From: Clostridium ljungdahlii DSM 13528
GTDB lineage: Bacteria > Bacillota > Clostridia > Clostridiales > Clostridiaceae
DNA: 64,000 bases
Direction: 5' to 3'
Assembly (NCBI RefSeq): GCF_000143685.1
Contig: NC_014328.1
Span: 620,001-684,000 of the forward strand
In this document: piece by piece, positions 1 to 15,675 of the stretch
How the letters are laid out: each line of letters begins with the position of its first letter
Numbering within the stretch: the first letter of the stretch is position 1
The notes under the pieces: generated by a model
What the model was told of the DNA's origin: nothing
Seen by the model: only the letters and a program-made list of their open reading frames with translations
The model's database searches: none
Position numbers and translations under genes: made by a program

Positions 1-228
1 AATAAGAAAAATTTAAGTGAAGAAAGGGAAAATATTATATATAATAGAGTAATAGAAATACTTATAAAAATTTCTCAAAAAAAGTTAAAAGAGTATACTG
101 CCTATATTGTTGATAAGACGAGTAAATTAAAAAATCAAGTTTACATTAGAGAAAAGTGGCTTGAAATTGAAAAAGAAGCAGAGGAAAAGGGCAAGAAAAA
201 GGGTATACTTGATCTTTTTAAAAAATGA
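1..228 (+). CDS. C-terminal part of an unrecognised protein (truncated by window edge)
   Basis: Only the last 75 codons are present: the frame is open from base 1 to a TGA at 226-228. The visible tail is rich in lysine and glutamate, probably helical, and ends EEKGKKKGILDLFKK. I do not recognise a family. The stop lies 21 bases before the start of the vWA gene, on the same strand, so it is probably an upstream member of the same operon. The start and any domains lie outside the window. Confidence 0.7.
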   Translation, partial: NKKNLSEERENIIYNRVIEILIKISQKKLKEYTAYIVDKTSKLKNQVYIREKWLEIEKEAEEKGKKKGILDLFKK

Positions 229-249
229 TTTAGAGAGGTGTTATTTACT

Positions 250-1704
250 GTGAAAACTAGAGCTAAGATGGTTCTCATTGCAGTTTTTGTGTATGTTCTC
301 CAATTGGGTTTTATACCTTCACAAAAGGTATATGCCAGTACATCATCTCCAAATGTAGATGTAGTTTTTGTGCTTGATTCAAGTGGGTCTATGAAACAAA
401 GTGATCCAGAGGAGATAAGGACAGAAGCTATAAAGATGTTTTTGGATATGGGACAGGTACAGGGAAACAAGGCAGGACTTGTGGCTTATTCAGATACTAT
501 AATAAAAGAACATAACCTGGATGCAATAAATTCTGAATCGGATAAAGAGAGAATAGAGGAAATGGCTTCTAATATACCTCTTGGGCAGAAAACCGATATT
601 GGAAGAGGTCTTTTGGAAGGTGCAAAGGTATTAGATAGTGGACATGACAGCAATAATAGACCACTTATAATACTGCTGTCCGATGGCAAAAATGATTCTC
701 AAAGGAGTGCCAGTGAATCTTTAAAGGATTTAAATAGTGCAATAAGCACATGCAAAAGCAAAGGTTATCCTGTGTATACTATAGGACTCAACTATGATGG
801 AACTGTAGATAAAGCACAGTTAACTCAAATAGCCAGTGAAACAAAGGGAAAAAACTACATAACCAATAAGGCATCAGACCTTACAGATATACTAAAGGAT
901 ATATATGGAGACAGTGCAAATGTAAAAGTTCAGGATCAGGGAAATATTGTGGCTGATGGAACCTTTCAGGATTTTAAAATAAATGTACCAGGGTCAAATG
1001 TTTTGGAAGCCAATATATCTATGGTTACAGACAACCCTTTAGAATTAAAGCTTATAAACCCTTCAGGTAAGGAAATACAGATACCTTCAAGTGATGTGGT
1101 TTTTACAAAATCAAAGAAGTATTCAGTACTTAAGATTGTAAAACCTGCGAGCGGTCAGTGGAATCTAAAGGTGAAAGGTGTAAGCGGAAGTAATATAAAG
1201 ATAAGTTATGTATTTAACTATAAAAATCAGGGAAACCAAAGTTCTGTAGATAAAAACATTCAAGGCGATAAGTCTGTATTTAAAAGTCCAAAGGTCATAG
1301 GAGCAGCTGCGGCTGCAGCACTAATTATTATAGGTCTTGCAGCCTTTGTACTGATGAAGAAAAGACGTGTACAGGGATTTGGAAGACTAGAAATTCACAT
1401 TAAGGATGAAAGTACTAGTGAGGTTCTTTCACCTCAATTTAGAAATTTGGATAATTACAGCGGAAGTTTTACACTTTTTGAAGTCTTAGGATTAAAAGAA
1501 GAGTATGCAGAAACAGAAAATATAAAATTCATATTTAAAGAAGATGACAGCATAGAACTTGTAAATAAGTCAGGCTGTGTACTGCAAAAGTCTGGTAGAA
1601 AGCTTGAGGAGGGTTCTAAGCTACTCCTTTATAACAGGGATAAAGTAACAGTGTTTTTAAATAAAGTAACAAAGAGTATAACATTAGAATTTCACTCAAA
1701 ATAG
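250..1704 (+). CDS. Secreted, membrane-anchored von Willebrand factor A (vWA) domain protein
   Basis: The start is taken as GTG at 250, because the GTG at 238 lies inside the Shine-Dalgarno sequence (AGAGGTG, 233-240). From 250 the protein starts with a signal peptide (MKTRAKMVLIAVFVYVLQ..., cleavage probably after VYA). A vWA domain follows with an intact metal-ion-dependent adhesion site: DVVFVLDSSGSM (DxSxS) and later LLSDGKND. A beta-rich region leads to a membrane segment (VIGAAAAAALIIIGLAAFVL), a KKRR stop-transfer and a cytoplasmic domain of about 110 residues. vWA domains bind protein partners through a metal ion. Being exported, this one probably senses or grips something outside and signals through its cytoplasmic tail. 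It is followed after 19 bases by the tubulin-like gene, so the two are almost certainly co-translated. Confidence 0.88.
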   Translation: MKTRAKMVLIAVFVYVLQLGFIPSQKVYASTSSPNVDVVFVLDSSGSMKQSDPEEIRTEAIKMFLDMGQVQGNKAGLVAYSDTIIKEHNLDAINSESDKERIEEMASNIPLGQKTDIGRGLLEGAKVLDSGHDSNNRPLIILLSDGKNDSQRSASESLKDLNSAISTCKSKGYPVYTIGLNYDGTVDKAQLTQIASETKGKNYITNKASDLTDILKDIYGDSANVKVQDQGNIVADGTFQDFKINVPGSNVLEANISMVTDNPLELKLINPSGKEIQIPSSDVVFTKSKKYSVLKIVKPASGQWNLKVKGVSGSNIKISYVFNYKNQGNQSSVDKNIQGDKSVFKSPKVIGAAAAAALIIIGLAAFVLMKKRRVQGFGRLEIHIKDESTSEVLSPQFRNLDNYSGSFTLFEVLGLKEEYAETENIKFIFKEDDSIELVNKSGCVLQKSGRKLEEGSKLLLYNRDKVTVFLNKVTKSITLEFHSK

Positions 1705-1723
1705 TGTCAAAGGGAGGTAGAAT

Positions 1724-4700
1724 ATGAATACTAGAGTTAGGGAACACCTGGAAGACCTTGAAGTTAGCAAAGGTGGAGGAATAATAAGTGATAAGATACG
1801 TATAGAAACCATACCTAATCCAGTTCTTGTAATAGGACTTGGAGGAACAGGTATAGATGCTATGCTGAGATTAAAATATCAAATAAATAAAAGATTTGTG
1901 CTAGAACAGGACAGTATTTCAAATACAAGAAAAGATAAACCCAAGAAAGTTGAGTTCTTAGGTTTTGAAACAAATCAGGGAGAAAAAAATAAAAGATATC
2001 CCATGAATGGTGGGGTAGGACTTGATCCTCAAAGTGAACTTGTCATGCTTTCAAATGCAGAAGTTAGGTCCATATTAAACGATCGTAAGATACTAGATGA
2101 TTGTATAAAAGAGTGGCTGGCACCAGAGTTGTCTTCTGAAAGTGGTACTGATGGTGCAGGTGGAGTTAGACAGGTTGGCAGACTGCTGCTTTTTACAAAA
2201 ATTAATGAGATTGTGGATTGCTTAGAAAAGAAAATAAGACTTCTTCAGGAAGACACAGAGGAAATTTTACATGTGTTTGTACTTTCTGGACTTTCAGGAG
2301 GAACTGGAAGTGGAACCTTCATAGATATTGCCTATATAGTAAGGGGAATAATGAATAATATTTACGGAGCAAAAGGCGATGACAAGGTAAATATTATGAG
2401 CTATTTATTTATGCCAGATGTTAACTTATCTAAGACTTCTGACAACCAATCTGCACAATCCTATATTATAAAAAATGGATTTGCAGCACTTAAAGAGTTG
2501 GATTATCTTATGGGTATTGGTGATAGGCATGAGAGGTTTACTCAAAAATACAGAAACAGGATTACAGTGGATTCACCTATGCCTCCTTTTAATCTGTGCC
2601 ATCTTATTTCTGCTACAAATGTAGACGGCAGACCTATGAGCAATGCCTATGACTACTGCATGAATGTAACTGCAGAAAATATTGTAAACTTCATGTCAAA
2701 TGAGGTTAGAGAATCTGGAGGAGTATTTGCAATACAGGATTATATAAGCAACTTGAAGCAGAACACGGATAATATGGCAAAACCATATATGGCAAATTAC
2801 AAATATGTAATGATAGGTGCCTCCTCTGCAGTACTTCCTCTTGAAGAAATTACTACTTATATGGCATATAAACTTTTTGAAAAAATACAGTATATGTTTG
2901 AGAACATGCCTAAAGAACAGGAAATAGATCAGTTTATAAGAAAGGCAAGATTAGATGAGGATGCTGTAATAGACAGATTTGAAGAGCATCTTCAAAATAG
3001 AAAGCCACTAACAGGTTATAAAAACAGGGAAAAGTTTAATTATGACAATGTAATAAAAAAGCAGTCCGTGAATATAGATGAAGAGATGAAGGAGTACTTG
3101 AGGGACTGCACAAATGAATATGATAAAGTAAAAACACAGTATCCGGGCGAAATTTTAAAACTGGTTAAGGATATGGTGAATCAAATTTTTAAAGACCCTA
3201 AAAAAGGACCTTTTTATGCATCCAGGGTGTTGTTTTCAGATGGATTTTGTGTTGTAAGAACTCTAGAGGCACAGGTAACTTCTTTAAATGAAAGACTTAT
3301 GAATATTTCTACGGAAATAAAGTCTGCAGAAGAACTAGCTGAGGATAAGTTTGTAGAAGCTAGAAAAGCCCTATTGTTTACTAAAGAAGGCAAAAAAAAT
3401 GATTACATAGAGGCTAAAAGTGAAGAGTATTTATTAAAATCTGAAGAACAGAGAATAATGAGGATGGCTGATTTTTACAGCAGTGTAATTGAAGAGCTTA
3501 GCAAACTGAATAACAGTATTTATAGGGTATATACTGAAATATTAAATGAATTGAACAGGATATTTAAAGAAGATGGAGACGTACTTGTAAAGGGAGAGGA
3601 AATAGAAGGAGCTCTTGGAAGAACTTATTCCTGGACAGTAGTAAAAGTGCCGGATTTAGTGGATTATATTGAAAAAGTTGTGAATAAAGAAGAAGCAGAT
3701 GATATTGTAAGGAGATTTTCTGAGAGACTTTTAGAGGAATCTGAGAAATGGATTGACGAAATGCATATTGATGTAGTTGGCTCAATTTCAAGTTTTGTCT
3801 CAGAAGAATACGGAGATGTAATAACAAAGTCCATGGAAGATTTCCTTGCTTTAGAATACGGAGAAGATAAATCCATAATAAATATAGTTAAAGATGAAAT
3901 TGCACCAAAGCTTGATAGGGATGCAGTGCCTATTTTCCATTTAAGTAATACGGAGGCATTGAATTTCCCAGCGTGGAGTATGGTTTCAGTGCCTAGAAAT
4001 GCAAAGAAAATTCTTGAAGGAATTAAGGAATATAAGAAAAATTCCAATAAAGGCAATGCCATTAACATTAAGGAGAGTATGGTTACAAATAGGATATTCT
4101 GGCTTAATACTAAAAATGGAGTTCCATTGTATTCTTATGCTCCTATAAAACATTACGAAGAGATTTATGAAAAGACTATGTTTGAACGGGATGGAATAGG
4201 AAGGCATTTATATCAAAACGGAGAGAAAAATTGGGTATACCTTCCATCACCTATTCCAGAAGAAGCTTGGGGTACAACTTATGTAAATGATAGAGTGAAA
4301 GAATATAATGAAAAAGTAAGGAATCTCTTTGACAGAGCCTTAGAACTTGGATGTATAGTAGATACCCAAAAGGGAAGCAATGAAAGATACAAGTGTATTA
4401 TTACTGAAGAATTTGATATAGATGATTTTATGAAAAATTATAATATGGATATGAAAGGTGACAAAATAAATATAGGAGAGGTAAAAAGGGCCATAGGGGA
4501 TATGAACAAACTTATTCAGGATAAGCTGACCCCTGTGCAAGATAGTGACAGCCAGAAATATTATATTTATGAAAGCAGCAGCAGCGAAAAGGCTAAAATT
4601 GATCTGATAAGAACTCCAGAACTTACAGAGCTTGTAAAAAAAGAGGTGGAAAAGTATGAAAAAATAATAGATAAGAAAAAGGAGCTTGAAAATATAATAT

Positions 4701-5131
4701 CAGATTTGAGCAAAGCTGAAGCTAATGTAGATAGTTTTTTAAGGGCACTTTATACGGAAACTATAATAAAGAAGGGTTTGCTTTATGTCTATAATGGAAG
4801 TGAAGACAGCAAAGTAGATATAGAACCTTTTATAAATGTATTAAAGCAAAAGGAATATCAGTATAAGGCTATATTTGATAAATATGAGACTTTAGATAAG
4901 GGAGAAAAGACTATTGTAGATAAAACTTCAGATAGAAAGTTAGAACAACTTTCCACAGGAGATGGAGTTGAAATTCTAAAATTGAAAGTAAGTTCTATTA
5001 TAGAAGAAGTGAAATCATCTGTTGGTGAACTGGACACTAGAAAGTATCAGATGGTAGAGGGTGATAAATTGTATGCTTTTTATACTGACATACTTTCAAG
5101 ACTTCAAGAAGTACAAAAATTGCTGGCTTAG
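1724..5131 (+). CDS. Giant FtsZ/tubulin-like GTPase (Tubulin_2-type)
   Basis: This 1135-aa protein has the tubulin/FtsZ nucleotide-binding layout near its N-terminus. The first is a Rossmann start, VLVIGLGGTGIDAM (about 35-47). The second is the tubulin signature SGLSGGTGSGTF (about 188-199), the loop that contacts GTP phosphates. A GGVRQVGR segment at 146-153 sits where FtsZ has its third loop. The rest (about 400-1135) is long, charged and helical with coiled-coil-like stretches, far larger than FtsZ (about 380 aa). This matches the large bacterial tubulin-like family (Pfam Tubulin_2), which recurs with vWA and GTPase genes and is predicted to remodel membranes. No signal peptide; cytoplasmic. 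SD GGGAGG precedes the ATG. Polymerisation is inferred from family, not shown. Confidence 0.85.
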   Translation: MNTRVREHLEDLEVSKGGGIISDKIRIETIPNPVLVIGLGGTGIDAMLRLKYQINKRFVLEQDSISNTRKDKPKKVEFLGFETNQGEKNKRYPMNGGVGLDPQSELVMLSNAEVRSILNDRKILDDCIKEWLAPELSSESGTDGAGGVRQVGRLLLFTKINEIVDCLEKKIRLLQEDTEEILHVFVLSGLSGGTGSGTFIDIAYIVRGIMNNIYGAKGDDKVNIMSYLFMPDVNLSKTSDNQSAQSYIIKNGFAALKELDYLMGIGDRHERFTQKYRNRITVDSPMPPFNLCHLISATNVDGRPMSNAYDYCMNVTAENIVNFMSNEVRESGGVFAIQDYISNLKQNTDNMAKPYMANYKYVMIGASSAVLPLEEITTYMAYKLFEKIQYMFENMPKEQEIDQFIRKARLDEDAVIDRFEEHLQNRKPLTGYKNREKFNYDNVIKKQSVNIDEEMKEYLRDCTNEYDKVKTQYPGEILKLVKDMVNQIFKDPKKGPFYASRVLFSDGFCVVRTLEAQVTSLNERLMNISTEIKSAEELAEDKFVEARKALLFTKEGKKNDYIEAKSEEYLLKSEEQRIMRMADFYSSVIEELSKLNNSIYRVYTEILNELNRIFKEDGDVLVKGEEIEGALGRTYSWTVVKVPDLVDYIEKVVNKEEADDIVRRFSERLLEESEKWIDEMHIDVVGSISSFVSEEYGDVITKSMEDFLALEYGEDKSIINIVKDEIAPKLDRDAVPIFHLSNTEALNFPAWSMVSVPRNAKKILEGIKEYKKNSNKGNAINIKESMVTNRIFWLNTKNGVPLYSYAPIKHYEEIYEKTMFERDGIGRHLYQNGEKNWVYLPSPIPEEAWGTTYVNDRVKEYNEKVRNLFDRALELGCIVDTQKGSNERYKCIITEEFDIDDFMKNYNMDMKGDKINIGEVKRAIGDMNKLIQDKLTPVQDSDSQKYYIYESSSSEKAKIDLIRTPELTELVKKEVEKYEKIIDKKKELENIISDLSKAEANVDSFLRALYTETIIKKGLLYVYNGSEDSKVDIEPFINVLKQKEYQYKAIFDKYETLDKGEKTIVDKTSDRKLEQLSTGDGVEILKLKVSSIIEEVKSSVGELDTRKYQMVEGDKLYAFYTDILSRLQEVQKLLA

Positions 5132-5163
5132 ATAATATGGATCTGTAATTGGGAGGAATTTTC

Positions 5164-7509
5164 ATGGAAGAAGTTTTAAAAAATTTTGTGGAAAAGTATG
5201 ATTTAAAGGTGGAAAAAACAATATACGACGGTGACACTAAAAGAAATGTGAATAACCCCATACTTTTCCTCTTTATAGGAGATAGTACTGAAGATGCCTA
5301 TGAGTATATTAGAAATAGTATAGATAAAAAATGGGATAATGGCAGAGGTGCAGTTTTTATAAATGTTTCCACAAAATCTGTTAAAGACACGGATAATTCT
5401 TTTAACATCCAGCTCCATGAAGATTTTAAAAATAAAAAGACGTTGAGAAAAGATATAAGAGATAGATTTTATAGTGATAAGGAAGATCTTAAAAATTTAA
5501 ATCGAAAAATTACAGAAGCTAGAGATAAATTGTTGTCAGAGGGGGACATGTTTAACTCCTTTGACAGCATAAATATTTCTGTAATTACTACATCTAAAGA
5601 TCCATTGAATGTAATACTTACAGAAGTAACTGTACTTTTAAAAAAGAGGATGCTGGAGGTATTTAAGCTCAGCTCTGCAGATCTCTATGTTTTGATTAAA
5701 AGTCAAAATTTAGGAGATGAGGTCTATGAAGGGGCAGTTACAGTAGGATTTTTTAGGGAAGTGGAATATTTTCAAAAAGATAGCTTTAGGTTTAAAGAAG
5801 ACATAGCTGTTTATGGGGATGAGACACAGCTTAATGTTACCTGGGAAGGACCTTTATTTTATCTTACCTATGTTCTGGAAGAAAAAAATGAGAAGGGCAT
5901 AATTCCTAAAGGTTCCATGGATAACAACTATGAAATAATTTCCTATATAAATCTTATAAAAAATAGGGAGGCATCATCCAATGCCTATTCGGATACGGAA
6001 AATCAGTACTACGACAACAATATATTTAAATCAAACATAAGTTATGATAATTCTATGAATAGGTATATTTCAGCAGGACTTTCACAGGTGAAAAGACCTA
6101 ATAGTGCCATTGCTATTTCTGTGCTTGGAGCATTTTATGAAAGAATGTTAAAGGAAATGAATACACTTTCTAAAAAGCAGCAGGAATTTATAAATGAAAT
6201 TTTAAAAATTGATGAGGCAAGTATTGAACTGCAAGTTGAAGAAATACTTCCTGAGGGAGTAACAATAGAAGACATGCAGGGGATTATGACAGATAATTTA
6301 AAACAGGTAGAGAAAAAAATATCAAGTTTTAACTTAAGGGAGATAGAAGAAAAGTTATATGACGATAGATGCGAAAAGTTTTTCTTTGAAAACTTTCAAA
6401 AGCCTTCTGAGGAATCGGTGAAAAACTGTGATTTAGAAAATAATATGAGGACTTTGATTAGAAAAAATATACTTGAGGACAATAAGCTTAATTTATATTG
6501 TGCCTTTAACTGGACCTCGGAGGAAGGAGAAACTGTAAATTATATAAGAAATAGAAGAGATTCTATTTTGAAATTTGTAAGTAAGTTAAATGATGAAATT
6601 AAGGATATATATGAGACAAGATTTGCTCCTAGCTTTGGTATTAAAAGTTTTTTTTCAAAAGGTGCCCAGGTAAAGGAAGCTCAGGAGAAAATATTTTTAG
6701 ATATATACGGTAGAAAACTAGAAATACTGAAATTAAATATATCAAAGAAAATTCTTGATATTTACGAGGATATACTTTTAAAAGTTCACAGTGAAATTTC
6801 AAGTTACATAAATAGGGTAAAGGATATAGGACAGACAATAAAAAGTTGTGAAAATAAAGTTATAGAAAAACAGGATAAATATACAGCTCAAAATGTAAGG
6901 GCTTATTATAAAAATGTAGTAAATGATATATTGGATAAACTTGAGAAAAATTTTGGAAAAGCTTTTTATTTAGAAGATAAATACCTGGGAAATACAGTAG
7001 AGAATTTAAAGGAATCGGATGAAAAATTTCTGGGGAAGATAATATATTTTTGCACTAAATATATTTTAAGTGAGGATCAGTTTAAAAAATCTTTTGAAGA
7101 AGAATTTAATGAAAGGGCCAATGTGAATGTTCCTAATTTGGAAACTAAGGTGCTTTCAAAAGAAGAACTATATCGAAAACTCTACGACATGTTGGATAAA
7201 AATTCAGCTTTAAAAATTTATATAATGAATTATGATGTAAAGCCCTACATGGAAAAATACTTTTTTGGAGATTACAGCAGTGACTTTATAAAGTATGCTT
7301 TTGATTTTGACAGAAAAACCAGAAATTATAAAATAGGATACATAGATGAAATAAAGAGCAGTGGTATTGAAAAATTGAATTTAATGGGTGGTTTTGGAGC
7401 AAAGGATATTATTTATGTAAGAAATTCAATGGAATTTTATAATTATTGTATGGAAAATGGATATTTGATCCATGGAGTAGATGAGAAATTGCTGCCAGAA
7501 ATAAACTAG
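5164..7509 (+). CDS. Large uncharacterised protein of the tubulin/vWA locus
   Basis: The protein has 781 residues. ATG 5164 is chosen because GGGAGG (5151-5156) precedes it at proper spacing. No family is recognised. The N-terminus has a Rossmann-like beta strand and turn, NPILFLFIGDSTEDA, reminiscent of the start of the tubulin fold, but I see no GGTGSGT loop. The centre and C-terminal half are rich in Lys/Glu with long helices. There is no signal peptide or clear membrane segment, so it is likely cytoplasmic. It starts 32 bases after the tubulin-like gene and is probably a structural or adaptor partner. It could be a divergent, nucleotide-blind tubulin-like protein; that is a guess to be tested by structure prediction. 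Confidence 0.75.
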   Translation: MEEVLKNFVEKYDLKVEKTIYDGDTKRNVNNPILFLFIGDSTEDAYEYIRNSIDKKWDNGRGAVFINVSTKSVKDTDNSFNIQLHEDFKNKKTLRKDIRDRFYSDKEDLKNLNRKITEARDKLLSEGDMFNSFDSINISVITTSKDPLNVILTEVTVLLKKRMLEVFKLSSADLYVLIKSQNLGDEVYEGAVTVGFFREVEYFQKDSFRFKEDIAVYGDETQLNVTWEGPLFYLTYVLEEKNEKGIIPKGSMDNNYEIISYINLIKNREASSNAYSDTENQYYDNNIFKSNISYDNSMNRYISAGLSQVKRPNSAIAISVLGAFYERMLKEMNTLSKKQQEFINEILKIDEASIELQVEEILPEGVTIEDMQGIMTDNLKQVEKKISSFNLREIEEKLYDDRCEKFFFENFQKPSEESVKNCDLENNMRTLIRKNILEDNKLNLYCAFNWTSEEGETVNYIRNRRDSILKFVSKLNDEIKDIYETRFAPSFGIKSFFSKGAQVKEAQEKIFLDIYGRKLEILKLNISKKILDIYEDILLKVHSEISSYINRVKDIGQTIKSCENKVIEKQDKYTAQNVRAYYKNVVNDILDKLEKNFGKAFYLEDKYLGNTVENLKESDEKFLGKIIYFCTKYILSEDQFKKSFEEEFNERANVNVPNLETKVLSKEELYRKLYDMLDKNSALKIYIMNYDVKPYMEKYFFGDYSSDFIKYAFDFDRKTRNYKIGYIDEIKSSGIEKLNLMGGFGAKDIIYVRNSMEFYNYCMENGYLIHGVDEKLLPEIN

Positions 7510-7518
7510 AATAGAGGA

Positions 7519-7760
7519 TTTTAACTTAAAATTTGACTTATAGATCATATAATGATAAATTTCATCACTATAAAAACTTTTAATAAGTCTAAAGTTCGAT
7601 ATTTTGAAAATCTAAGAATCTTAGCTAAACTCGTACCTCAAACAATATCTAAGCTTCTAAGATTTTCTAAAATATCTCACTAAGACTTATAAAAAATTTT
7701 TTAAATGTGATTTCAATTTTATCATTATATGTTATATATAAGTTCAAATTTAAGGTAAAA
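7519..7760. repeat. Family A palindromic repeat, copy A1
   Basis: An imperfect inverted repeat of about 240 bp. The outer arms (from TTAACTTAAAATTTGACTTA to ATAAGTTCAAATTTAAGGT) and inner arms (GATATTTTGAAAATCTAAG and CTAAGATTTTCTAAAATATC) face each other around a centre with AAACTCGTACCTCAAAC. The same layout and centre occur near 21300-21880 and 60900-61150. No gene is present. Confidence 0.8.
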
Positions 7761-8055: not shown

Positions 8056-9315
8056 TTGGTAGAAAAAAGAATAAATTTAACTATGACCGTTATGAGTTTA
8101 ATAGGAGGCATCATAGGATTTATTGCAGGGGAAATTTTTATAAATGCTTATAAGTACAAGATGAGTGGAAGTTTGCTTATGGGGTTTTACTTTGGAATCA
8201 TAGCACTTTGCATAGGTACTTTTTGTCTTGTAGGAGAGATGATAAATCCAAGGCTGAATGGAGTTGGGTGGAAAAACAATTATTTAAAGACTTCTTTTAA
8301 ATTTTTGATTCCCTGTACTTTTATTGCAATTTTTGTATTTGGCATGCTTTTTCAATTTATATATGAAAGCAGCGGATTGAAGTTTCAAAAGGTGAACGAT
8401 ATAGTTTTTGTAATAGATACGTCAGGAAGTATGGCAAATACTGACCCTCAAAATGAAAGATTTTCTTCGGTTTTAAATCTTATGGATAATATGAACACAC
8501 AAAATAGGGTTTCAATATATAAGTTTGACGATACTTCAAAGAGAATAATACCTATGACAGAGGTTTCAGAGTCTCTTAAGAAAAATGCTGAGGAAGAGTT
8601 GAAACAATATGAAATTCCAGCTGGGAATACTAACATGGGAGAAGCCATTGACAGTGCTTATAATGAAATAAATTCAACTAAAAGACCTGGAAGAAAGGCT
8701 GCGGTAATTTTGCTTTCAGATGGTGAAGACAATTTTGGATTAAATAAAAAATTTGATGAGACTCTTAAACCTTTTAAAGACTCAAATATTTCTATTTACA
8801 CAATAGGTATGTCTAATGAAAATAACTTTACTACCTTAAAGAAAATTGCAAAAGATACTCATGGAGAATATTATAATGTAAAAAATGCCAGTGATTTAAA
8901 GGGAACCTTTAGTAAGATATATTATGCAACTCAGCAGAGGTTATTAGTAGACAGAAGAGATGGATTAACTGAATCTTCTACTTTATATATGATACTTAGA
9001 GTACTTTTAATTACAATTATATCTGGACTTATAACAATGTCTATAAGTTTTGTATTTGATAATAAGAATTTACTTAAGAGATTTTTAATAGGTGGAATTG
9101 CAGCTGGATTTTTAGGAGGACTTATCATGGAAGTAGGATTTTTAAATTCTCCAGATCATGGTTCTCTTTATAGGGCACTTTTAGTTATTATGATTGCACT
9201 TATATTTACGCTAATTCCAGTTATAGTTGATATAAAGGATTATTCTAAAAGCAGTTATTTGAGAGGAAATCAGAGGACTAGTTTTGACAAAACTAAAGGT
9301 AATACTTTTAGGTAA
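8056..9315 (+). CDS. Polytopic membrane protein with an extracytoplasmic vWA domain
   Basis: TTG start at 8056, supported by AGGAGG seven bases upstream; 419 aa. Three predicted membrane helices lie in the first 110 residues. A vWA domain follows with a complete metal site: DIVFVIDTSGSMANTD, a threonine later in GNTNMGEA and LLSDGEDN. About three more helices end the protein (starting near LYMILRVLLITIISGL). With the N-terminus inside, three helices put the vWA domain outside the cell, as for the first vWA protein. Fold and topology resemble Bat-type vWA membrane proteins. Its place in the tubulin/GTPase locus suggests a sensor or adhesion partner. Topology is inferred from hydrophobicity only. 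Confidence 0.85.
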   Translation: MVEKRINLTMTVMSLIGGIIGFIAGEIFINAYKYKMSGSLLMGFYFGIIALCIGTFCLVGEMINPRLNGVGWKNNYLKTSFKFLIPCTFIAIFVFGMLFQFIYESSGLKFQKVNDIVFVIDTSGSMANTDPQNERFSSVLNLMDNMNTQNRVSIYKFDDTSKRIIPMTEVSESLKKNAEEELKQYEIPAGNTNMGEAIDSAYNEINSTKRPGRKAAVILLSDGEDNFGLNKKFDETLKPFKDSNISIYTIGMSNENNFTTLKKIAKDTHGEYYNVKNASDLKGTFSKIYYATQQRLLVDRRDGLTESSTLYMILRVLLITIISGLITMSISFVFDNKNLLKRFLIGGIAAGFLGGLIMEVGFLNSPDHGSLYRALLVIMIALIFTLIPVIVDIKDYSKSSYLRGNQRTSFDKTKGNTFR

Positions 9316-9342
9316 TTATATTTAGAATTGGGTGGTAGGTTA

Positions 9343-9990
9343 ATGAAGATAATTGAATTTGAAGATGGCTCTAGTGAAATATGTGAAATTAGCTGCGAAG
9401 TTGAGAAAGACAGGCTTTATATAAGATGGAAGTGGCCTAAAAATACAGATATAGTGTATGTAATGAAAACTGACAACTTAGATGATCTTTCCTTGAATGA
9501 TGCAGAGTTGAAAAGTGCAAAATTATATACTATGGAAGAGTATAAGGAATTCAATGGGTATTGTGAGAGCATTAAAGAAATAAATCAGTATAGGTACTAT
9601 GTTTTTCCAGCTGTTGAAAGTGATGATGATATACTGCTTGTAAAGCAGAATAATGGTAAGAACCAAATTGTAGTGAGTACGGGAAAACCTGACATATACT
9701 ATGACATAAAAGAAGTAAAATCTCTAAAAGGGTTATTTTCCAAGGATAAAAAATTGCAGATAACAATAAAGTCAGAAATTCCTCTCCACAAGGATGTACT
9801 GTGTTATGTAAAAAAGAGAGATTCTTATCCTGTGAACAATAAGGATGGTATAAGTTTTGACTTTATCTGTGACATTCATGTTGGCATAAATGAGATGCCA
9901 GAAATAACAGTAAAAAAAGATGAATATGTGAAAGTATTTATAAAGGACATTGATAAATACGGTGGTAGTTATAGATTAAAACAGATATAG
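9343..9990 (+). CDS. Uncharacterised beta-rich protein next to the vWA gene
   Basis: ATG 9343 is preferred over an in-frame TTG at 9328, because the G-rich SD (GGGTGGTAGG) lies between them; 215 aa. No signal peptide or membrane segment. The sequence alternates short polar strands (MKIIEFEDGSSEICEISCEV, YIRWKWPKNTDIVYVMKTD, KLQITIKSEIPL), suggesting two or three beta-sandwich or fibronectin-like modules. No catalytic motif and no family recognised. It follows the second vWA gene after 27 bases and is probably translated with it. An adaptor role in the vWA/tubulin/GTPase locus is inferred from position. Confidence 0.7.
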   Translation: MKIIEFEDGSSEICEISCEVEKDRLYIRWKWPKNTDIVYVMKTDNLDDLSLNDAELKSAKLYTMEEYKEFNGYCESIKEINQYRYYVFPAVESDDDILLVKQNNGKNQIVVSTGKPDIYYDIKEVKSLKGLFSKDKKLQITIKSEIPLHKDVLCYVKKRDSYPVNNKDGISFDFICDIHVGINEMPEITVKKDEYVKVFIKDIDKYGGSYRLKQI

Positions 9991-10135
9991 CTTTGTAGGT
10001 TGTAAGTAAAATTTTACTTATTCTCTGGATATTTTACAACCTTCAGCCCGTTAAATATTTTGATAAGTCTAAGTAAAAAATTCTAGAAAATCTAAGAGCT
10101 TTATAAGAGAACTCACATTTGTAAGATATTATTAA
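9989..10135. repeat. Family A repeat fragment A4
   Basis: Starts AGCTTTGTAGGTTGTAAGTA and carries AACCTTCAGCCCGTTAAATATTTTGATAAGTCTAAG, nearly identical to 11823-11920. Contains the perfect palindrome AAGTAAAATTTTACTT. Arms AGGTTGTAA/TTACAACCT can form a stem. It begins at the stop codon of the preceding gene. Confidence 0.7.
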
Positions 10136-10158
10136 TAATGGATGATAGGTGCTAAAAC

Positions 10159-10326
10159 ATGAAAAAGAATAAATTATTTGCATTAATAAATTTCTTAATT
10201 ATTTTCTTAACATTTTTTATAGGATTTGAGGTTATCAAACTAAAAAGTAATCTAATTAATTATATTATACTTGGAATAGTAGATGGATGTCTATTGTACT
10301 TATACCCGAAACTATTTGATAATTAG
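10159..10326 (+). CDS. Small membrane protein, 55 aa
   Basis: ATG 10159 to TAG 10326, preceded by GATAGGTG as a modest ribosome site. The sequence starts MKKNKLFALINFLIIFLTFF, one strong membrane helix after a lysine-rich start. A second hydrophobic stretch (NYIILGIVDGCLLYLYP) follows. No family recognised. It lies in a small island between family A repeat fragments inside the vWA/GTPase locus. Two-helix small proteins can be toxins, immunity proteins or regulators; nothing here decides among these. Confidence 0.5.
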   Translation: MKKNKLFALINFLIIFLTFFIGFEVIKLKSNLINYIILGIVDGCLLYLYPKLFDN

Positions 10327-10370
10327 CAATATTTGAATTTAAAATGAGTAATCTTTGTTAGAAAGGGGAA

Positions 10371-10470
10371 AAAAATAAAATTTTCCACTTTCAATTCTCA
10401 AGTACTCTAAGACATTTTTATTAGCGATTTATGAGAGAGTTCACATTTGTAAAATATTACGAACGATGCA
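10371..10470. repeat. Degenerate family A fragment A5
   Basis: Shares GAGTTCACATTTGTAAAATATTA with the end of fragment A4 (AACTCACATTTGTAAGATATTA near 10110-10130) and a CTCTAAGACATTTTTATTAG segment. It is a decayed piece with no coding potential. Confidence 0.4.
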
Positions 10471-10538
10471 AGAGGAAATGTTAATACTCTGAGACAATTT
10501 TGAAGGAATTATAACTGTCAGTAATGGGGGCATGGTAA

Positions 10539-11051
10539 ATGTACAAGACAATAAATAATTTACTCAGTTTTTTTACTATCATAGTTTGTATTGGATTTGG
10601 GATGCCGTTCATGGGCTTGCTAAAAGGTAGGAGAGGTACAGACTCTCTTTTTCATTATAACAAAACTATGTATTTCAGGGTTTCATTAATTGGAATAGTT
10701 ATAGCGATACTATTCATAGTTATCTGCATTGTCTTAAAAAAGAAAATTAGGGCTATGGAATGTAAAATAAAATACCTACCTTCTTATACTGCACCTGTAG
10801 TTAAATATACACTATTTAAAAGCAAATATTCAGTTGTCTTTAGTATAGATGGTAAGAAATATAGACATAAATTTGAAGCAATAGGAGTTAAGAAAGTTTA
10901 TGACTTTAAGCAAGGTTCTTATGTAAGATATAGGATTTATAAGGATGAAATTATTCCTGAAAAATTTTATTTAGCAATTCCTAAGTATGAGAAAGGTATT
11001 AAAAACAAGTGGACTTATTTAAGCAAAAATCAATATAGAAAACAATGCTAA
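10539..11051 (+). CDS. Membrane protein with a small extracytoplasmic or cytoplasmic beta domain (DUF3592-like)
   Basis: 170 aa, ATG after a G-rich site (GGGGGC). Two hydrophobic helices (about 8-30 and 47-70) are separated by a short polar loop with GRRGTDS. After the second helix comes a beta domain: PVVKYTLFKSKYSVVFSI, DGKKYRHKFEAIG, GSYVRYRIYKDEIIPEKFYL. The pattern of a 'y.v.y.v.Gk.y' strand set followed by 'G..v.v.Y....P' after a TM segment resembles DUF3592 proteins, but the match is by eye. It lies in the repeat-bounded island and is probably not part of the GTPase locus proper. Confidence 0.6.
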   Translation: MYKTINNLLSFFTIIVCIGFGMPFMGLLKGRRGTDSLFHYNKTMYFRVSLIGIVIAILFIVICIVLKKKIRAMECKIKYLPSYTAPVVKYTLFKSKYSVVFSIDGKKYRHKFEAIGVKKVYDFKQGSYVRYRIYKDEIIPEKFYLAIPKYEKGIKNKWTYLSKNQYRKQC

Positions 11052-11356
11052 GTCACATTAATATTAATTTTTAACTTACAACATTCATAAAAAATTTTAG
11101 TACACAAAGGGGATAATTAATTGATTAAAAGATACTTTGACTTAGTTCATAATATTCTTATTATGTGACTTAAAAGTAAATTATGATGAACTAAAATTGG
11201 TAATCGTGTAGGGGGAATAGTATGTTTATAAGGAAATATACCCAATAGTCCAATAAACATTTATTAAATAATATAAATGTGTAATATTCTTTTATTATTG
11301 AACAATGGTAAAATATCGTGAACTGAAGATTATTTGAATTTGGGGGAAAATGGTTT
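11052..11356. other. Non-coding gap of about 300 bases
   Basis: AT-rich with only very short frames: a TTG frame at 11121 of 15 codons and an ATG at 11221 of 8 codons after GGGGG. These may be remnants. No hairpin or promoter stands out. Confidence 0.4.
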
Positions 11357-11707
11357 ATGGAATATAACATAGAATTTTGGAATGTATTAGATAGTCTTGT
11401 GCAAGAATCGGAGGTTGTTATTGATAGACCCAAGGGAACAGTTCATCCCAAATATCCAGATTTCCTTTATGAAATAGATTATGGTTATCTAAGAGGTACT
11501 TCATCAATGGATGGTAGTGGAATTGATATTTGGAAAGGAACAGACAAGGAACAAAAAATAGATGCGATAATGTGTACTATAGATTTAATAAAAAAGGATT
11601 CAGAAATTAAAATATTAATTGGATGTACTGAGGAAGAAAAAGAAAAGATTTATCATATTCATAATGATTCAGCAAATATGAAAGGTGTCTTAATTAGAAG
11701 GTTTTAA
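11357..11707 (+). CDS. Small protein related to inorganic pyrophosphatase, probably without catalysis
   Basis: 116 aa, ATG after GGGGG. The core reads VVIDRPKGTVHPKYPDFLYEIDYGYLRGTSSMDGSGIDIW, given here as separate motifs: RPKG-HPKYP, then Y-I-DYGYLRGT, then DGSGID. This follows family I soluble pyrophosphatases (E/D-xP-G..., YP.NYGyiPgT, DGDPLD), but the protein is about 60 residues shorter. The DGDxxD metal motif has Ser in place of the middle Asp. Short PPase-like proteins of this type are common in Firmicutes and often annotated as inorganic pyrophosphatase or hydrolase. The first and last Asp of the motif remain, so some metal binding is possible. It stands alone with no obvious partner gene. 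Confidence 0.65.
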   Translation: MEYNIEFWNVLDSLVQESEVVIDRPKGTVHPKYPDFLYEIDYGYLRGTSSMDGSGIDIWKGTDKEQKIDAIMCTIDLIKKDSEIKILIGCTEEEKEKIYHIHNDSANMKGVLIRRF

Positions 11708-11822
11708 ATTCAATACAAAGTAAGATATGAATTAAAATTTATTTTTTTTACTGGTGAATAAATAGGAGGATTAGGTTCCAGACATTATTATAAATTCTAT
11801 ATATGTTCTTTGTTATTTTTAA

Positions 11823-11985
11823 AAGCTTTGTAGGTTGTAAGTAAAATTTGACTTATTCTTTGGATATCTTTACAACCTTCAGCTCGTCAAATATTTTGAT
11901 AAGTCTAAGCAAAAAATATTTAAATGTGCTTCATTATTGTAAAATATCGCTGCGTATAAGTTCAAATTTTACTTAAAATCACATA
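11823..11985. repeat. Family A repeat fragment A6
   Basis: Starts AGCTTTGTAGGTTGTAAGTA and includes AACCTTCAGCTCGTCAAATATTTTGATAAGTCTAAGC. The outer arms AGTAAAATTTGACTTAT and ATAAGTTCAAATTTTACTT are complementary. Nearly identical to A4 for its first 100 bases. The rest of the 440-base gap (11708-12147) has no gene. Confidence 0.7.
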
Positions 11986-12147
11986 TAGATCGTAAAGTTT
12001 ATAACTGAATTTATGTTTTAGAGAATTTAATTCACACTCGTAAAATTATATGTCTAAATTAGTGTGCTTTAATTAAATAGTATAAAATAGTTGTAAAATT
12101 AAAGTGGATAAAAAGTGGCAAACACTTTAAAGTGGAGGATTAGTAAA

Positions 12148-12522
12148 ATGAGAAAGAAGAAAAAATTAAATATTTTTGCCTTAATAGTTATAATAATTGG
12201 AGGAGGAATGGCATTATATAATAATTATTTCCATAATATTGACTCAAATAGATATTTATCAAGCATAAATGAAGATAAGAGCATTGACTATGATGGGACT
12301 CACAAAAGTGATAAAAATAGTGAAAGTTTTGATTTCAAAAAATTTGATGGAAAGTGGTCTTTAATGCAGTTTACATCTAACAAAGGTAATATAAATTTTA
12401 CTACGCCTAATGATGGAAAATATTCTATTAGAATTATCGGGGCAAATGCAAGTGGTAATTTTGCCATAAACGTAAGTGCCAGTAATAATATAGATATTTC
12501 TCATAAAGATTTTTTTGATTAA
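12148..12522 (+). CDS. Small membrane-anchored protein preceding the GTPase gene
   Basis: ATG 12148 is chosen because GGAGG (12134-12138) lies nine bases upstream; 124 aa. A lysine-rich start (MRKKKKLNIFALIVIIIGGG) leads into a single membrane helix. An outside domain of about 100 residues follows and ends SYSIRI-like beta strands (KYSIRIIGANASGNFAINVS). No family recognised. The outer part has Ser/Asn/Lys-rich linker sequence followed by a small beta domain. It lies 24 bases before the GTPase gene and probably belongs to that transcript. A membrane anchor or surface sensor is the simplest inference. Confidence 0.65.
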   Translation: MRKKKKLNIFALIVIIIGGGMALYNNYFHNIDSNRYLSSINEDKSIDYDGTHKSDKNSESFDFKKFDGKWSLMQFTSNKGNINFTTPNDGKYSIRIIGANASGNFAINVSASNNIDISHKDFFD

Positions 12523-12546
12523 TTAATAGAATGGAGGAGTGAGAGT

Positions 12547-13821
12547 ATGGGAATCTTTAAATTTTTCAGGAGTGGTAATAGTGAACCTAGAAATACTTAT
12601 GAGAAGGCAACTTATGAAAGAGGACCTTTTATGATAACATGTCCTTTTTGCTTTAAAAAATTTAAATCAGATCATGTGGTATTCAGGGCTTCTCACTCGG
12701 AAAAGGGAGATCCTGAATATGAAAAGGTAGAGGATGAGCTTCTTAATAGATACTATAAAAAGATAGGAAAAGGAACATTAGGGCCAATGAATCCCGTTGT
12801 TAAGGCTCAAGCACTTCCTGAAAGAAATAAGACGAGAGTGGACAAAGTACTAGTTGAAATTAAAGACAAATACGATGCAAGTACAGATGAAAGATTATGT
12901 CCTTACTGTCATAATGATTTGCCTATAACTTCAGGAAGAGGACCTTCTAAAATTATATCTGTTATAGGAGCTTCTCAAGTAGGAAAGTCTGTATATATGA
13001 CAACTCTTCTTTATGTGCTTGAAAAGTATACTTGTGAAAGAATAGGGGCATCTCTTATTGCAGGAAACTCTGGTTACAATGATGAGATAAGAGAAAATCA
13101 AGAGAGAATTTTTGAAAAAAATTTAATGCTCGATCCTACTCCCAAACAGCATGTAGAACCTTTAATAGAAAATTTAAAATTTAAAGAAGATAAAATTCCA
13201 CCTTTGACTCTTATTTTTTACGATATACCAGGTGAGGGTATGACAGATAAGGCCTATATGGAAAATCATGCAGAACATATAAAAAATTCAGATGGAATAA
13301 TATTTCTTGTGGATCCACTTCAAATGAGGACTTTGAGGAAAAAGTTAAGTATTGTGAATAGGGAAAAAGGTGACTTTACGGAAAAGTATCAGGAACCGAA
13401 GGATATAATAGTGTATTTGTTTGAAAATTTTATATCCAAGGAATCTAAAGAAAAAACGCACATACCTACGGCAGTAGTAGTTACTAAAAGTGATATGCTT
13501 AAGAATTTAAAGGATGAAGAATATATAGGAGAGAACAGTAATATATTTAAAAATTACAATCATGAGGGATTTTTTAATTTAAATGAATTTGAAAATATTG
13601 ATGGTGAAGTTAGAAAGTTTTTATTGAAAGCTGATGCCCCATTTAAAGGTGCCGTGGATGCTTGCTTTAAAACTGCAGGTTATTTTGCAGTATCTTCTTT
13701 GGGTTCTAATTCCAATCATCTTGAAATAGATAGAAGCAGCAGTATAAATCCTATTAGAGTGGATGAGCCTTTTTTGTGGCTGCTTTATAAAATGAATTAT
13801 TTGGATGGGGGCAGGGAATAG
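12547..13821 (+). CDS. Zinc-ribbon TRAFAC-like GTPase (double-GTPase 2 type)
   Basis: 424 aa, SD GGAGGAG. A split zinc ribbon is formed by CPFC (32-35) and CPYC (118-121). The GTPase core follows: P-loop GASQVGKS (141-148), Walker-B/G3-like YDIPGEG (225-231) and a guanine-specificity motif TKSD (313-316, NKxD equivalent). A conserved FLVDP lies between them. Zinc ribbon ahead of a P-loop GTPase is the layout of the 'double-GTPase 2' family described with GAP1 proteins in predicted bacterial conflict systems. The family name is from memory, not a search. It is followed after two bases by the GAP1-like gene, so the two proteins very likely act together. Cytoplasmic. Confidence 0.82.
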   Translation: MGIFKFFRSGNSEPRNTYEKATYERGPFMITCPFCFKKFKSDHVVFRASHSEKGDPEYEKVEDELLNRYYKKIGKGTLGPMNPVVKAQALPERNKTRVDKVLVEIKDKYDASTDERLCPYCHNDLPITSGRGPSKIISVIGASQVGKSVYMTTLLYVLEKYTCERIGASLIAGNSGYNDEIRENQERIFEKNLMLDPTPKQHVEPLIENLKFKEDKIPPLTLIFYDIPGEGMTDKAYMENHAEHIKNSDGIIFLVDPLQMRTLRKKLSIVNREKGDFTEKYQEPKDIIVYLFENFISKESKEKTHIPTAVVVTKSDMLKNLKDEEYIGENSNIFKNYNHEGFFNLNEFENIDGEVRKFLLKADAPFKGAVDACFKTAGYFAVSSLGSNSNHLEIDRSSSINPIRVDEPFLWLLYKMNYLDGGRE

Positions 13822-13823
13822 AT

Positions 13824-14879
13824 ATGATAGAGCAGCAGTATTATACTAGGGAAAAAAGAGGAATATTTAGCAGTACTCCAGGTTATGATACTATTGCAAA
13901 AAGCAGTGGACTTGAGGATGAATTCATAAAAGACACTATTCACAGTTTATGCTCTTATACTGCTCCTGCATTTTTAGCCGGAGAAAAAGATTTAAGTAAA
14001 TATCCAAAGGCACTTTTTTATGCAAATACTGGAGATGGAAAAATTATAATAGGGCAATCAGTTTTTGCAGGGGAGGACTATACCTTAAAAAGAAACAGGT
14101 ATTTTACTCACTGCTATGTAATATCTGAGAATGAAAGAAAGTTATACATAGAAAATCCTGAAAAAATAATATATGCCTCAGGATTTGTAGAAAATTATGA
14201 TATGGAAAAGGGAAATTCTATAGAAAGTTTGAGAGAAGTGAAAGTTGATAGAGTCTGTGATGTGTTTAACTCTATAGAAGATTTGTTTTTAGCTGCTTCT
14301 ATAGATAAAAATACGTTTATAAATATGGTAAAAGCTTGTTTTGATGCAGCTGCTTTTAATAAAAAGATATATATTGTGGTTCCTTATAATGAAAATATGG
14401 ATAAAGTTATAAAAGGAATACTAAAATACCTGTATAGGGCACTTCCTTTTGCAGTAAGGAGAAAGGTTGGTTTCACAACTTATGTGAAGCAGCCTGAAAT
14501 AAAGGAGTCTATAAATATTGAATTTCTACTTGAAGGAAGCATAAAAAGGCTTACTCAAGATGTAAAAGCAGGATATGTTTTTGATATAGCAGATAATAAT
14601 TTCTATCTTGAAGGAATTGATGAAAGACATCATATTTTTATAGACTTTGTTATGAATAATATAGAAAATGAGCAGGCTTTAAATGAATTCTTTATTCAGG
14701 CAGATAATGTTTGCTCTAGAGAAAAATTTACCATTGATATGTATGATAATATTTTATGCCCATCTTCTAAAAATGAAGAAGTTAAAGAAAGTACTATGTG
14801 TATGGAGGAAAATGAACAAGTTGAACATAAACATAATCTAGTGTATTTTTTAAAGAAGTTATTTTTAAATAAAGATTAG
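13824..14879 (+). CDS. GTPase-associated protein 1 (GAP1-N2-like)
   Basis: 351 aa, starting three bases after the GTPase stop. The N-terminal 120 residues match what I recall of GAP1 type-2 N-domains: QQYYTREKRGIFSSTPGYDT, then KSSGLEDEFIKDTIHSLCSY, then PKALFYANTGDGKIIIGQSV and NRYFTHCYVIS. Typical GAP1 proteins have QQ.YT..RRG.f...G..T.A.S.GL. A helical middle region follows, including YLYRALPFAVRRKVGFTTYV, where 'LP..R....FtT' is common in the family. No enzyme motif is visible. It is shorter than multidomain GAP1 proteins, and the C-terminus (about 315-351) is low complexity. A role as regulator or effector adaptor of the adjacent GTPase is inferred from the pairing. Confidence 0.75.
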   Translation: MIEQQYYTREKRGIFSSTPGYDTIAKSSGLEDEFIKDTIHSLCSYTAPAFLAGEKDLSKYPKALFYANTGDGKIIIGQSVFAGEDYTLKRNRYFTHCYVISENERKLYIENPEKIIYASGFVENYDMEKGNSIESLREVKVDRVCDVFNSIEDLFLAASIDKNTFINMVKACFDAAAFNKKIYIVVPYNENMDKVIKGILKYLYRALPFAVRRKVGFTTYVKQPEIKESINIEFLLEGSIKRLTQDVKAGYVFDIADNNFYLEGIDERHHIFIDFVMNNIENEQALNEFFIQADNVCSREKFTIDMYDNILCPSSKNEEVKESTMCMEENEQVEHKHNLVYFLKKLFLNKD

Positions 14880-14892
14880 AGGTGACAAGTAG

Positions 14893-15675
14893 ATGCCTAA
14901 ATGTAGAGAATGTGGTACAGAGCTGGATGAAAATGATAAGTTTTGTGTATACTGCGGTGCAAAACAGGAAAAGGAACGTGAAAGAGAAGAGGATAAAAAT
15001 GATGATACAAAGTATTATGGAAAAGAAAATAATGACTATAAAAAAGAAGATAAAAAGCATGAGGATAGCTTAAAGAACAGCGATACTTTTGATTTTAGTT
15101 CATCTCATGAAACAAAAAAGACAGATAGAAAAGATAAAGATGAATTTACCAGAGAGATAGATGACACTCAACTTAAAGATAAGCGGCCATTTAATTTCAA
15201 AATGATAGGTATAACTATTTTAACTATAATTGTATTTGTTGTTGCCTTTAAGATGATATCCTCACTTATAAATAAAGGTCCCGGCAAAAATGTTTCAAAT
15301 GTGGAATCCAAGCAAAACGTTTCTTCTGATTTGAATAACAATGATGAAAATGATTCAGATAATAATTCAGGAGAATACGTGATACCTTACAGCAATACAA
15401 GGGCACTTACTAGTAATGACCTGAAAGGTATGAGTAAAAAGCAGCTGGCACTTGCTAGAAATGAAATATTTGCAAGGCATGGCTACACATTTCCTACAGA
15501 ACCATATAAGAGTTATTTTGCAAGTAAGTCCTGGTATAAGCCTAATCCCAATTATACTAATGATGGCAAGGAACTTTCCGCGCTTGAGAGACATAATGTA
15601 AAGGTGATATTGATAGCAGAAGGCCGTGGAAAATATGTATCACCTGGATATGATGCAGATTATTATAAAAAATAG
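14893..15675 (+). CDS. Zinc-ribbon, transmembrane, YARHG-domain protein
   Basis: 260 aa. The N-terminal zinc ribbon uses C4, C7, C18 and C21 (CRECG ... FCVYCG). A charged, disordered linker (about 25-100) leads to one membrane helix (about 104-124). A second linker leads to a C-terminal YARHG domain: LARNEIFARHGYTF, then YFASKSWYKPNPNY and LSALERHNVKVI. YARHG domains are extracellular modules named for the ARHG motif and often occur on surface proteins. The layout puts a zinc ribbon inside and YARHG outside, a candidate link between the cytoplasmic GTPase and the cell surface. It starts 13 bases after the GAP1-like gene and ends the locus. Confidence 0.85.
   Translation: MPKCRECGTELDENDKFCVYCGAKQEKEREREEDKNDDTKYYGKENNDYKKEDKKHEDSLKNSDTFDFSSSHETKKTDRKDKDEFTREIDDTQLKDKRPFNFKMIGITILTIIVFVVAFKMISSLINKGPGKNVSNVESKQNVSSDLNNNDENDSDNNSGEYVIPYSNTRALTSNDLKGMSKKQLALARNEIFARHGYTFPTEPYKSYFASKSWYKPNPNYTNDGKELSALERHNVKVILIAEGRGKYVSPGYDADYYKK

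Follow-up and report, generated by a model that had tools for sequence, protein, structure and literature searches.

Bacterial operons that join tubulin-like proteins, von Willebrand factor A (vWA) proteins and GTPases have been predicted in print since 2010 (Makarova & Koonin 2010; Kaur et al. 2020). One such locus lies in and directly upstream of a 64,000-nucleotide stretch of the Clostridium ljungdahlii DSM 13528 genome (the window), and is analysed here. Membrane remodelling was proposed for the FtsZl1/vWA/GTPase operons in the relevant passages of Makarova and Koonin (PMC2875224), where C. kluyveri and Brevibacillus brevis appear in the FtsZl1 alignment. A conflict role was proposed for the GAP1-N2 DO-GTPase systems (Kaur et al. 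2020, eLife, PMC7159879). The passages of that paper on firmicute systems describe two tubulin genes, together with a YtkA-fused vWA protein, a vWA protein with multiple transmembrane (TM) segments, an FNIII component and a C-terminal coiled coil in the tubulins. The YARHG domain was described as extracellular and proposed to bind peptidoglycan, according to the relevant part of Coggill and Bateman (2012, PMC3355149). Literature searches of openly licensed papers found no functional or experimental work on this class.

As far as the relevant passages of Kaur et al. go, the locus shares with their firmicute tubulin theme the zinc ribbon (ZnR) DO-GTPase, the GAP1-N2/M protein, two tubulin-domain genes and two vWA genes, one of them with multiple TM segments. 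However, it adds an upstream FN/GTPase/GAP1 triad of tubulin-free kinship, and it differs in a first vWA protein without YtkA, a short GAP1, a second tubulin without GTP loops and a ZnR-TM-YARHG accessory; the word YARHG is absent from the main text of Kaur et al. Neither the loop loss nor the double triad was found in those passages, and the loop loss would be an addition to their two-tubulin statement. The FtsZl1 operons share a Tubulin_2-type protein encoded with vWA and P-loop GTPase genes; the passages concerned mention no GAP1, no degenerate second tubulin and no composite arrangement. The accessory shares the extracellular YARHG domain with the proteins treated in the relevant part of Coggill and Bateman, but it has a zinc ribbon at its predicted cytosolic end and is linked to a tubulin/GTPase operon. 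The terms ‘zinc ribbon’, ‘tubulin’ and ‘Clostridium’ have no occurrence in that paper.

We read the locus, with a probability of roughly 0.4, as a machine of the GAP1-N2/tubulin type that is anchored in the membrane and has signalling and cytoskeletal roles, with a second, originally tubulin-free GTPase system docked upstream. The metal-binding vWA domains of two membrane proteins (vWA1 and vWA2) would lie outside the cell, as judged from hydropathy, and might bind a wall or surface ligand. The cytosolic tail of vWA1, together with vWA2, may relay this state inward. The degenerate tubulin (pseudotubulin), whose loop loss is observed, would lack ordinary GTP binding and might couple the membrane proteins to the active Tubulin_2 protein. 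The DO-GTPase (L), regulated by GAP1 (M) and an FN-like protein (H), would act on the active tubulin and time its assembly. The upstream triad (FN-like A, GTPase B, GAP1 C) may serve as a second switch, and the output is probably a local reinforcement or remodelling of the envelope or membrane.

The gene set was examined around relatives of the window tubulin. A scan for the tubulin gave 265 candidate stretches, of which 254 encode a relative. The 80 best loci were retained, and the sample is thus tubulin-selected. Tubulin, pseudotubulin and vWA1 are present in all 80 loci, vWA2 in 78, H and the GTPase in 77 each, and GAP1 in 76. The seven-gene core vWA1-tubulin-pseudotubulin-vWA2-H-GTPase-GAP1 is complete in 76/80, and the other four (L004, L023, L041, L061) terminate at a locus or contig end. 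The order of the core genes is constant in the loci where the gene-order listing shows it. This listing follows a longest-open-reading-frame rule, by which genes are masked in a number of loci (L022, L037, L044, L047, L049, L068 and L083 among them); the presence counts were taken from separate gene searches. Among 148 genomes of a family that is probably Paenibacillaceae (f100), 71 have tubulin and GAP1, one has tubulin only, none has GAP1 only, and 76 have neither. Tubulin_2 scored over the cut-off in 72 of these genomes and GAP1-N2 in 71; in 70/71 the two share a contig, about 8-12 kb apart in the places compared. The expectation of the initial annotation that these genes stay together held for this core unit (76/80 loci, 71/72 in f100) and failed for the Clostridia at large, as given below.

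The 1135-aa protein, in which a tubulin loop had been seen at the outset, is a clear Tubulin_2 member, with the motifs GGTG (residue 40) and GGTGSG (residue 192). The T4 loop GGTGSG is kept in 81/81 tubulins (80 loci and the window). C. ljungdahlii ERI-2 and C. ragsdalei have tubulins with 99% identity to that of the window. A PDB sequence search with each of the two tubulins of the locus gave nothing useful (two matches for one, best 0.042; none for the other).

Two large unknowns had been announced for the locus; only one was found, the 786-aa protein, and it appears itself to be a divergent tubulin. The window member by itself has no useful Pfam match and none to Tubulin_2; however, 19 of the 59 family members (window member counted) match Tubulin_2 at E <= 0.01, the best at 6.2e-6. 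Profile-profile alignment with hhalign against the 1135-aa family gave E 2.1e-6 and a probability of 89%. Comparison of the N-terminal parts alone lowers the probability to 57% (E 1e-4) and places the signal beyond the T4 loop, and therefore it is order and flanking strands that support the T1/T4 correspondence. The GG[TS]G[ST]G motif is absent throughout all 59 pseudotubulins; the T4 position holds a TRxDDPLNV-like motif in 59/59, and the T1 position FIGDK-like residues. GGAGSG matches occur in two members of the locus set (L044, residue 656; L063, residue 102), both outside the T4 position. On these profile comparisons, the 786-aa protein is a predicted second, divergent and degenerate tubulin without GTP loops. 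The distant relative G219 has two tubulins, both with a GGGTG-type loop.

Several other tubulin records were met. P0088, whose tubulin is 47% identical to that of the window, which is in the Paenibacillus range, is labelled Yersinia pestis in a public source and is probably a mislabelled or contaminated record. Two Paenibacillus pseudotubulins (P0048, P0052) are named ‘transcription initiation factor TFIID’ in their sources, which looks like a misannotation. Plasmids of Thermus, Meiothermus and Allomeiothermus encode distant tubulin-like proteins (26-27% identity, 24-30% coverage). In a methanogen, an operon that includes vWA-like and tubulin-like genes was reported, in the relevant part of PMC12008871, to be upregulated by motion, a possible link to mechanical stress.

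Membrane topology was taken from hydropathy only, and it corrects the initial annotation of the two vWA proteins as exported. The vWA1 protein has an N-terminal signal or TM segment, a vWA domain with a metal ion-dependent adhesion site (MIDAS), a TM segment at 347-365 and a tail of about 120 aa that is predicted to be cytosolic; vWA2 has six hydrophobic segments, with the vWA domain between the third and the fourth. Both were claimed to have intact metal sites, and the DxSxS/T/D positions are indeed kept in both, as scored by alignment column listing (a loose regular expression matched off site, and a strict one missed Bacilli variants). The window vWA1 is about 100 aa shorter than its homologue in C. 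carboxidivorans (L007), and the missing part is the YtkA-like domain. No Pfam match to YtkA was found in the window vWA1; the L007 orthologue matches at 3.6e-5 and 24.7 bits, slightly below the cut-off of 25.9. The predicted topology fits the outside-to-inside link first suggested, whereas the YARHG protein as a shared sensor does not hold: window-type YARHG proteins occur in 5/80 loci, all of Clostridium and all placed after GAP1. The YARHG protein was therefore rejected as a core component; it is an accessory, found in Clostridium loci only. Two of the five lack CxxC pairs, and the L004 and L005 loci end upstream of the YARHG position.

Other accessories were found in the Bacilli. A relative of a 323-aa protein of locus L020 is encoded in 64 of 67 Bacilli loci; 59/64 of these proteins carry two CxxC pairs within their N-terminal 70 residues, 59/64 have a TM-like segment, and two that were tested gave no Pfam zinc-ribbon match. 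Forty-four Bacilli loci also hold a relative of the neighbouring 603-aa protein of L020, which has a TM segment and a bacterial SH3_3 domain (5e-12); the relative in L029 has no SH3 match. In fully listed loci both gene types lie upstream on the opposite strand. Each of the two lineages thus adds a membrane protein that possibly faces the wall, as a parallel and not by homology.

The abundance of predicted membrane proteins bears on the proposal of Makarova and Koonin, in which the tubulins would do mechanical work in a dedicated membrane-remodelling or vesicle-forming apparatus, with the vWA proteins structural and not sensory. Such proteins include both vWA proteins, the CxxC/TM accessories and most of the GAP1s of Bacilli, and the FtsZl1 operons, in the passages concerned, share the component set. 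However, no membrane-bending domain is among the Pfam matches, T6-H7 elements could not be identified in FtsZl1 (relevant part of PMC2875224), and the extra GTPase/GAP1 triad resembles regulation. An apparatus of this type is regarded as unlikely.

The P-loop GTPase with a split zinc ribbon was correctly recognised: GTPase L has CPFC at 32 and CPYC at 118, the P-loop GASQVGKS and the motif TKSD. The GAP1-like protein two bases downstream is also real, with the 2-base gap confirmed. GAP1 M has 351 aa in the window; the other complete copies from Clostridium have 350-650 aa, and those of Bacilli mostly about 800-1170 aa. The window protein lacks the extended C-terminal part and the TM segment of most Bacilli homologues, where a hydrophobic TM-like segment occurs in 60/64. 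The H protein corresponds by position to the FNIII component in the relevant passages of Kaur et al., with no Pfam fn3 match; none was obtained in 27 rows (26 distinct) of the FN-like H/A proteins.

Evolutionary coupling was analysed with partial distance correlations. The raw pairwise distances correlate strongly for all core genes, as expected from linkage. The partial correlation of tubulin and GTPase is 0.80 (77 genomes) and 0.70 (64 Bacilli), and 0.49-0.76 on slow columns. With equal column numbers and H left out, its mean is 0.53, and it is the largest pair in 89/100 resamples. The functional tie between GTPase and tubulin that had been suggested from the first is thus matched by the strongest gene-specific distance correlation among core pairs, and this coupling is read as support for a direct functional link. 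Other partial correlations are hints at most; for example, the pseudotubulin-vWA values range from -0.07 to 0.42. Together, the seven-gene core, the loss of nucleotide loops in one tubulin and the tubulin-GTPase tie give a short list of testable pairs. If the reading were true, bacteria would own a transmembrane surface-to-tubulin signalling machine that is open to study in Paenibacillus or Brevibacillus.

Several results weigh against the signalling and cytoskeletal machine. The tubulin-pseudotubulin partials are unremarkable (0.00-0.22 in six variants and 0.39 in a seventh), and our confidence was lowered because this pair is weak. The GTPase-GAP1 partials are also weak in Bacilli (0.02 and 0.20 on slow columns, 0.17 with equal column numbers), and the tubulin-GAP1 partial is -0.40 in one variant, a sign of the instability of the partialling method. 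The FN-like proteins, as given above, yielded no fn3 match. The T7 loop was sought by profile alignment of the tubulin to 25 FtsZ sequences; the alignment did not extend beyond some 50 columns around T4 (69%, E 4.5e-5), and therefore polymerisation cannot be deduced from the sequence. Moreover, the tubulin and GAP1 modules occur separately across 291 Clostridia genomes: Tubulin_2 is over the cut-off in 9 and GAP1-N2 in 14, with both only in the C. ljungdahlii genome of the window. Two Clostridia loci without GAP1-N2 (L113, L118) still have vWA1, tubulin and GTPase in a similar order. The gene set is rigid inside certain lineages, and the modules are separable at a larger scale.

A stronger version of the surface-to-cytoskeleton idea would be an analogue of the integrin-type link. 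The extracellular MIDAS vWA domains would read the wall or a surface contact and, by way of a pseudotubulin adaptor, would anchor and gate a tubulin-like polymer switched by its own GTPase and GAP1, and the second GTPase system would be an extra input. The motion-responsive methanogen operon may be a lead in this direction. This version is considered improbable.

Selection was measured as the ratio of nonsynonymous to synonymous substitution rates (dN/dS) against two close relatives; GAP1 M was measurable against one of the two only. The values range from 0.02 to 0.29. The tubulin and the two GTPases lie at 0.02-0.07, close to flanking ABC-type genes (0.05-0.08); pseudotubulin, H and the vWA proteins have 0.10-0.17, and A and the GAP1s 0.14-0.29. 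H has the top dN (0.039-0.043), but its dS is twice that of the other genes. Against the more distant C. carboxidivorans locus (dS about 1 to 1.9), dN/dS is 0.10-0.42, and the highest value is that of GAP1. The whole-gene ratios point to purifying selection and show no sign of an arms race.

These data bear on the alternative that the locus is an anti-phage or conflict system, in which the FN-like and GAP1 proteins would sense an invader, the DO-GTPase would act as the switch, and the tubulin and membrane proteins would contain the invader or kill the cell. Kaur et al. assign the GAP1-N2 tubulin systems to conflict in the passages concerned, and a TCAD9 (ternary complex associated domain 9) gene adjoins the triad in C. 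carboxidivorans. The locus also contains a variable gene slot, and its presence in the genus is patchy: Tubulin_2 is over the cut-off in 6/13 genomes, the same six hold the H protein, and two weak rows are 672-aa frames with stops. Moreover, among the core genes GAP1 and the FN-like genes have diverged most between close relatives (91.7-95.5% aa identity), and H has the top dN. However, seven genes stand in fixed order in a core without a variable effector, and the ratios stay at or below 0.29 against the close relatives (the 0.42 of GAP1 comes at a dS of about 1 or more). No full-length match was found in 72,556 plasmid records (three partial) or 50,697 phage records (one partial), and PADLOC (2023) gave for ten proteins one weak match, to LmuB (1e-3) on the upstream GTPase. 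Because the core is fixed and dN/dS against the close relatives is below 0.3, a maintained machine is favoured over a fast-changing defence island, and the conflict role is viewed as doubtful.

The boundary first placed at the window start was moved, since the locus begins upstream with the FN-like/GTPase/GAP1 triad. The second GAP1 (C) was found by searching the genome with the window GAP1 (27% identity, E 1e-9, directly upstream), and a whole-genome profile search gave only two DO-GTPase2 places over the cut-off, B and L. The A-B-C genes are paralogous to H-L-M (A vs H 3e-8; B vs L-type 27.5% identity; C vs M 1e-9), and the triad precedes the core in each of the 12 Clostridium loci that include upstream sequence. 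L015 (Lutispora), the thirteenth Clostridia locus, begins inside vWA1 and is uninformative on this point. A further GTPase match (B') lies between C and vWA1 in L006-L010; that of L007 matches DO-GTPase2 at 5e-7 and has hydrophobic segments. L011-L014 and L053 have an open reading frame (ORF) of 321-370 aa at this position, which in L014 and L053 has a P-loop and is in the GTPase tree. The group of the window has no gene between C and vWA1.

Phylogenetic trees pointed to separate origins. In the GAP1 tree the upstream copies group with GAP1s of tubulin-free genomes (split 100/100), and the downstream copies group with Bacilli; the long-branched GAP1s of L123 and L129, from incomplete genomes (85% and 65% complete) in which no tubulin was found, fall on the downstream side. 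The GTPase tree kept 39 of 42 rows, leaving out L012 B' and an L121 fragment (both without a P-loop by regular expression) and a second short L121 fragment. In it the closest partner of the upstream GTPase comes from a tubulin-free locus (94/87, not starred), and B' groups with membrane GTPases of tubulin-free loci (100/99). A long-branch warning applies here. The order A-B-C-B' without tubulin is seen in G265, where the B gene is in pieces. The Clostridium locus looks composite because the trees put the upstream triad with tubulin-free systems, and its origin as a tandem duplication of H-L-M was dropped after the trees. The simplest account would be that a tubulin-free GAP1-N2 system docked beside the tubulin system in an ancestor of the Clostridium species concerned, and that both were then inherited together.

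The two triads might instead be independent systems that are merely adjacent, as their differing closest relatives in the trees and their separate occurrence in other genomes would allow. However, A, B and C are kept upstream in every informative Clostridium locus, the gaps A-B, B-C and C-vWA1 are only 17, 6 and 9 bp, and the two GTPases and the two GAP1s alike show the species pairs L009-L010, L011-L012 and L014-L053 in their trees. In these trees the positions of L006, L007 and the window differ or are weak. Mere adjacency is judged to be rather unlikely.

The whole locus covers about 20.3 kb, from G000:C1:615340 to window position 15675. The features are listed in Table 1. The genes named in the initial annotation proved real by Pfam search (Tubulin_2, VWA, DO-GTPase2, GAP1-N2 and YARHG all matched, the zinc-ribbon/TM/YARHG protein included); whereas its gaps, boundary and count of large unknowns did not stand. 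The gaps are not short throughout, with 546 bp between pseudotubulin and vWA2, and 2,556 bp between H and GTPase L.

Table 1. Features of the locus. Coordinates are window positions unless G000:C1 is given; the window is G000:C1:620001-684000 of a single-contig genome of 4,630,065 bp.
Feature	Coordinates	Strand	Matches and remarks
A, FN-like protein, 359 aa	G000:C1:615340-616419		outside window, upstream
B, upstream DO-GTPase, 392 aa	G000:C1:616437-617615		outside window; DO-GTPase2 2.9e-6, CxxC pairs
C, upstream GAP1, 868 aa	G000:C1:617622-620228		GAP1-N2 6.7e-38 and GAP1-M
3' end of upstream GAP1 gene C	1..228	+	
vWA1, 488 aa	238..1704	+	VWA (Pfam) E 1.2e-22
Tubulin, Tubulin_2 / FtsZl1-type, 1135 aa	1724..5131	+	Tubulin_2 E 1.6e-85, 287.9 bits (cut-off 27)
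Pseudotubulin, predicted degenerate tubulin-like	5149..7509	+	786 aa from TTG, 781 aa from internal ATG
vWA2, polytopic membrane protein	8056..9315	+	VWA (Pfam) E 9.3e-25
H, conserved 220-aa protein, paralogue of upstream A	9328..9990	+	
Slot, non-conserved ORFs (170, 116, 135 aa) and repeats	9991..12546		outside conserved core
L, DO-GTPase with split zinc ribbon	12547..13821	+	DO-GTPase2 (PF19993) 3.3e-7, 30.6 bits (cut-off 27)
M, GAP1-N2 and GAP1-M protein, 351 aa	13824..14879	+	4e-38 and 4e-16
Zinc ribbon-TM-YARHG protein	14893..15675	+	Zn_Ribbon_1 1.7e-7, YARHG 3.6e-24

The larger gap is the slot, whose gene content varies among three close relatives (the window, L004 and L005). Its genes were considered as effectors and dropped; the slot proteins of L004 and L005 resemble ordinary enzymes, as judged by eye. 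Promoter and terminator scans of the locus gave little above shuffled sequence. The repeats of the slot are about 50-100 nt long, and similar copies also lie upstream (L084:9194-9402). Also upstream of the locus, L084:497-5933 contains nucleotide-sugar genes that by eye resemble mannose-1-phosphate guanylyltransferase and dTDP-rhamnose genes. In C. carboxidivorans the TCAD9 gene (2.6e-15) occupies L007:427-1686, directly upstream of the triad.

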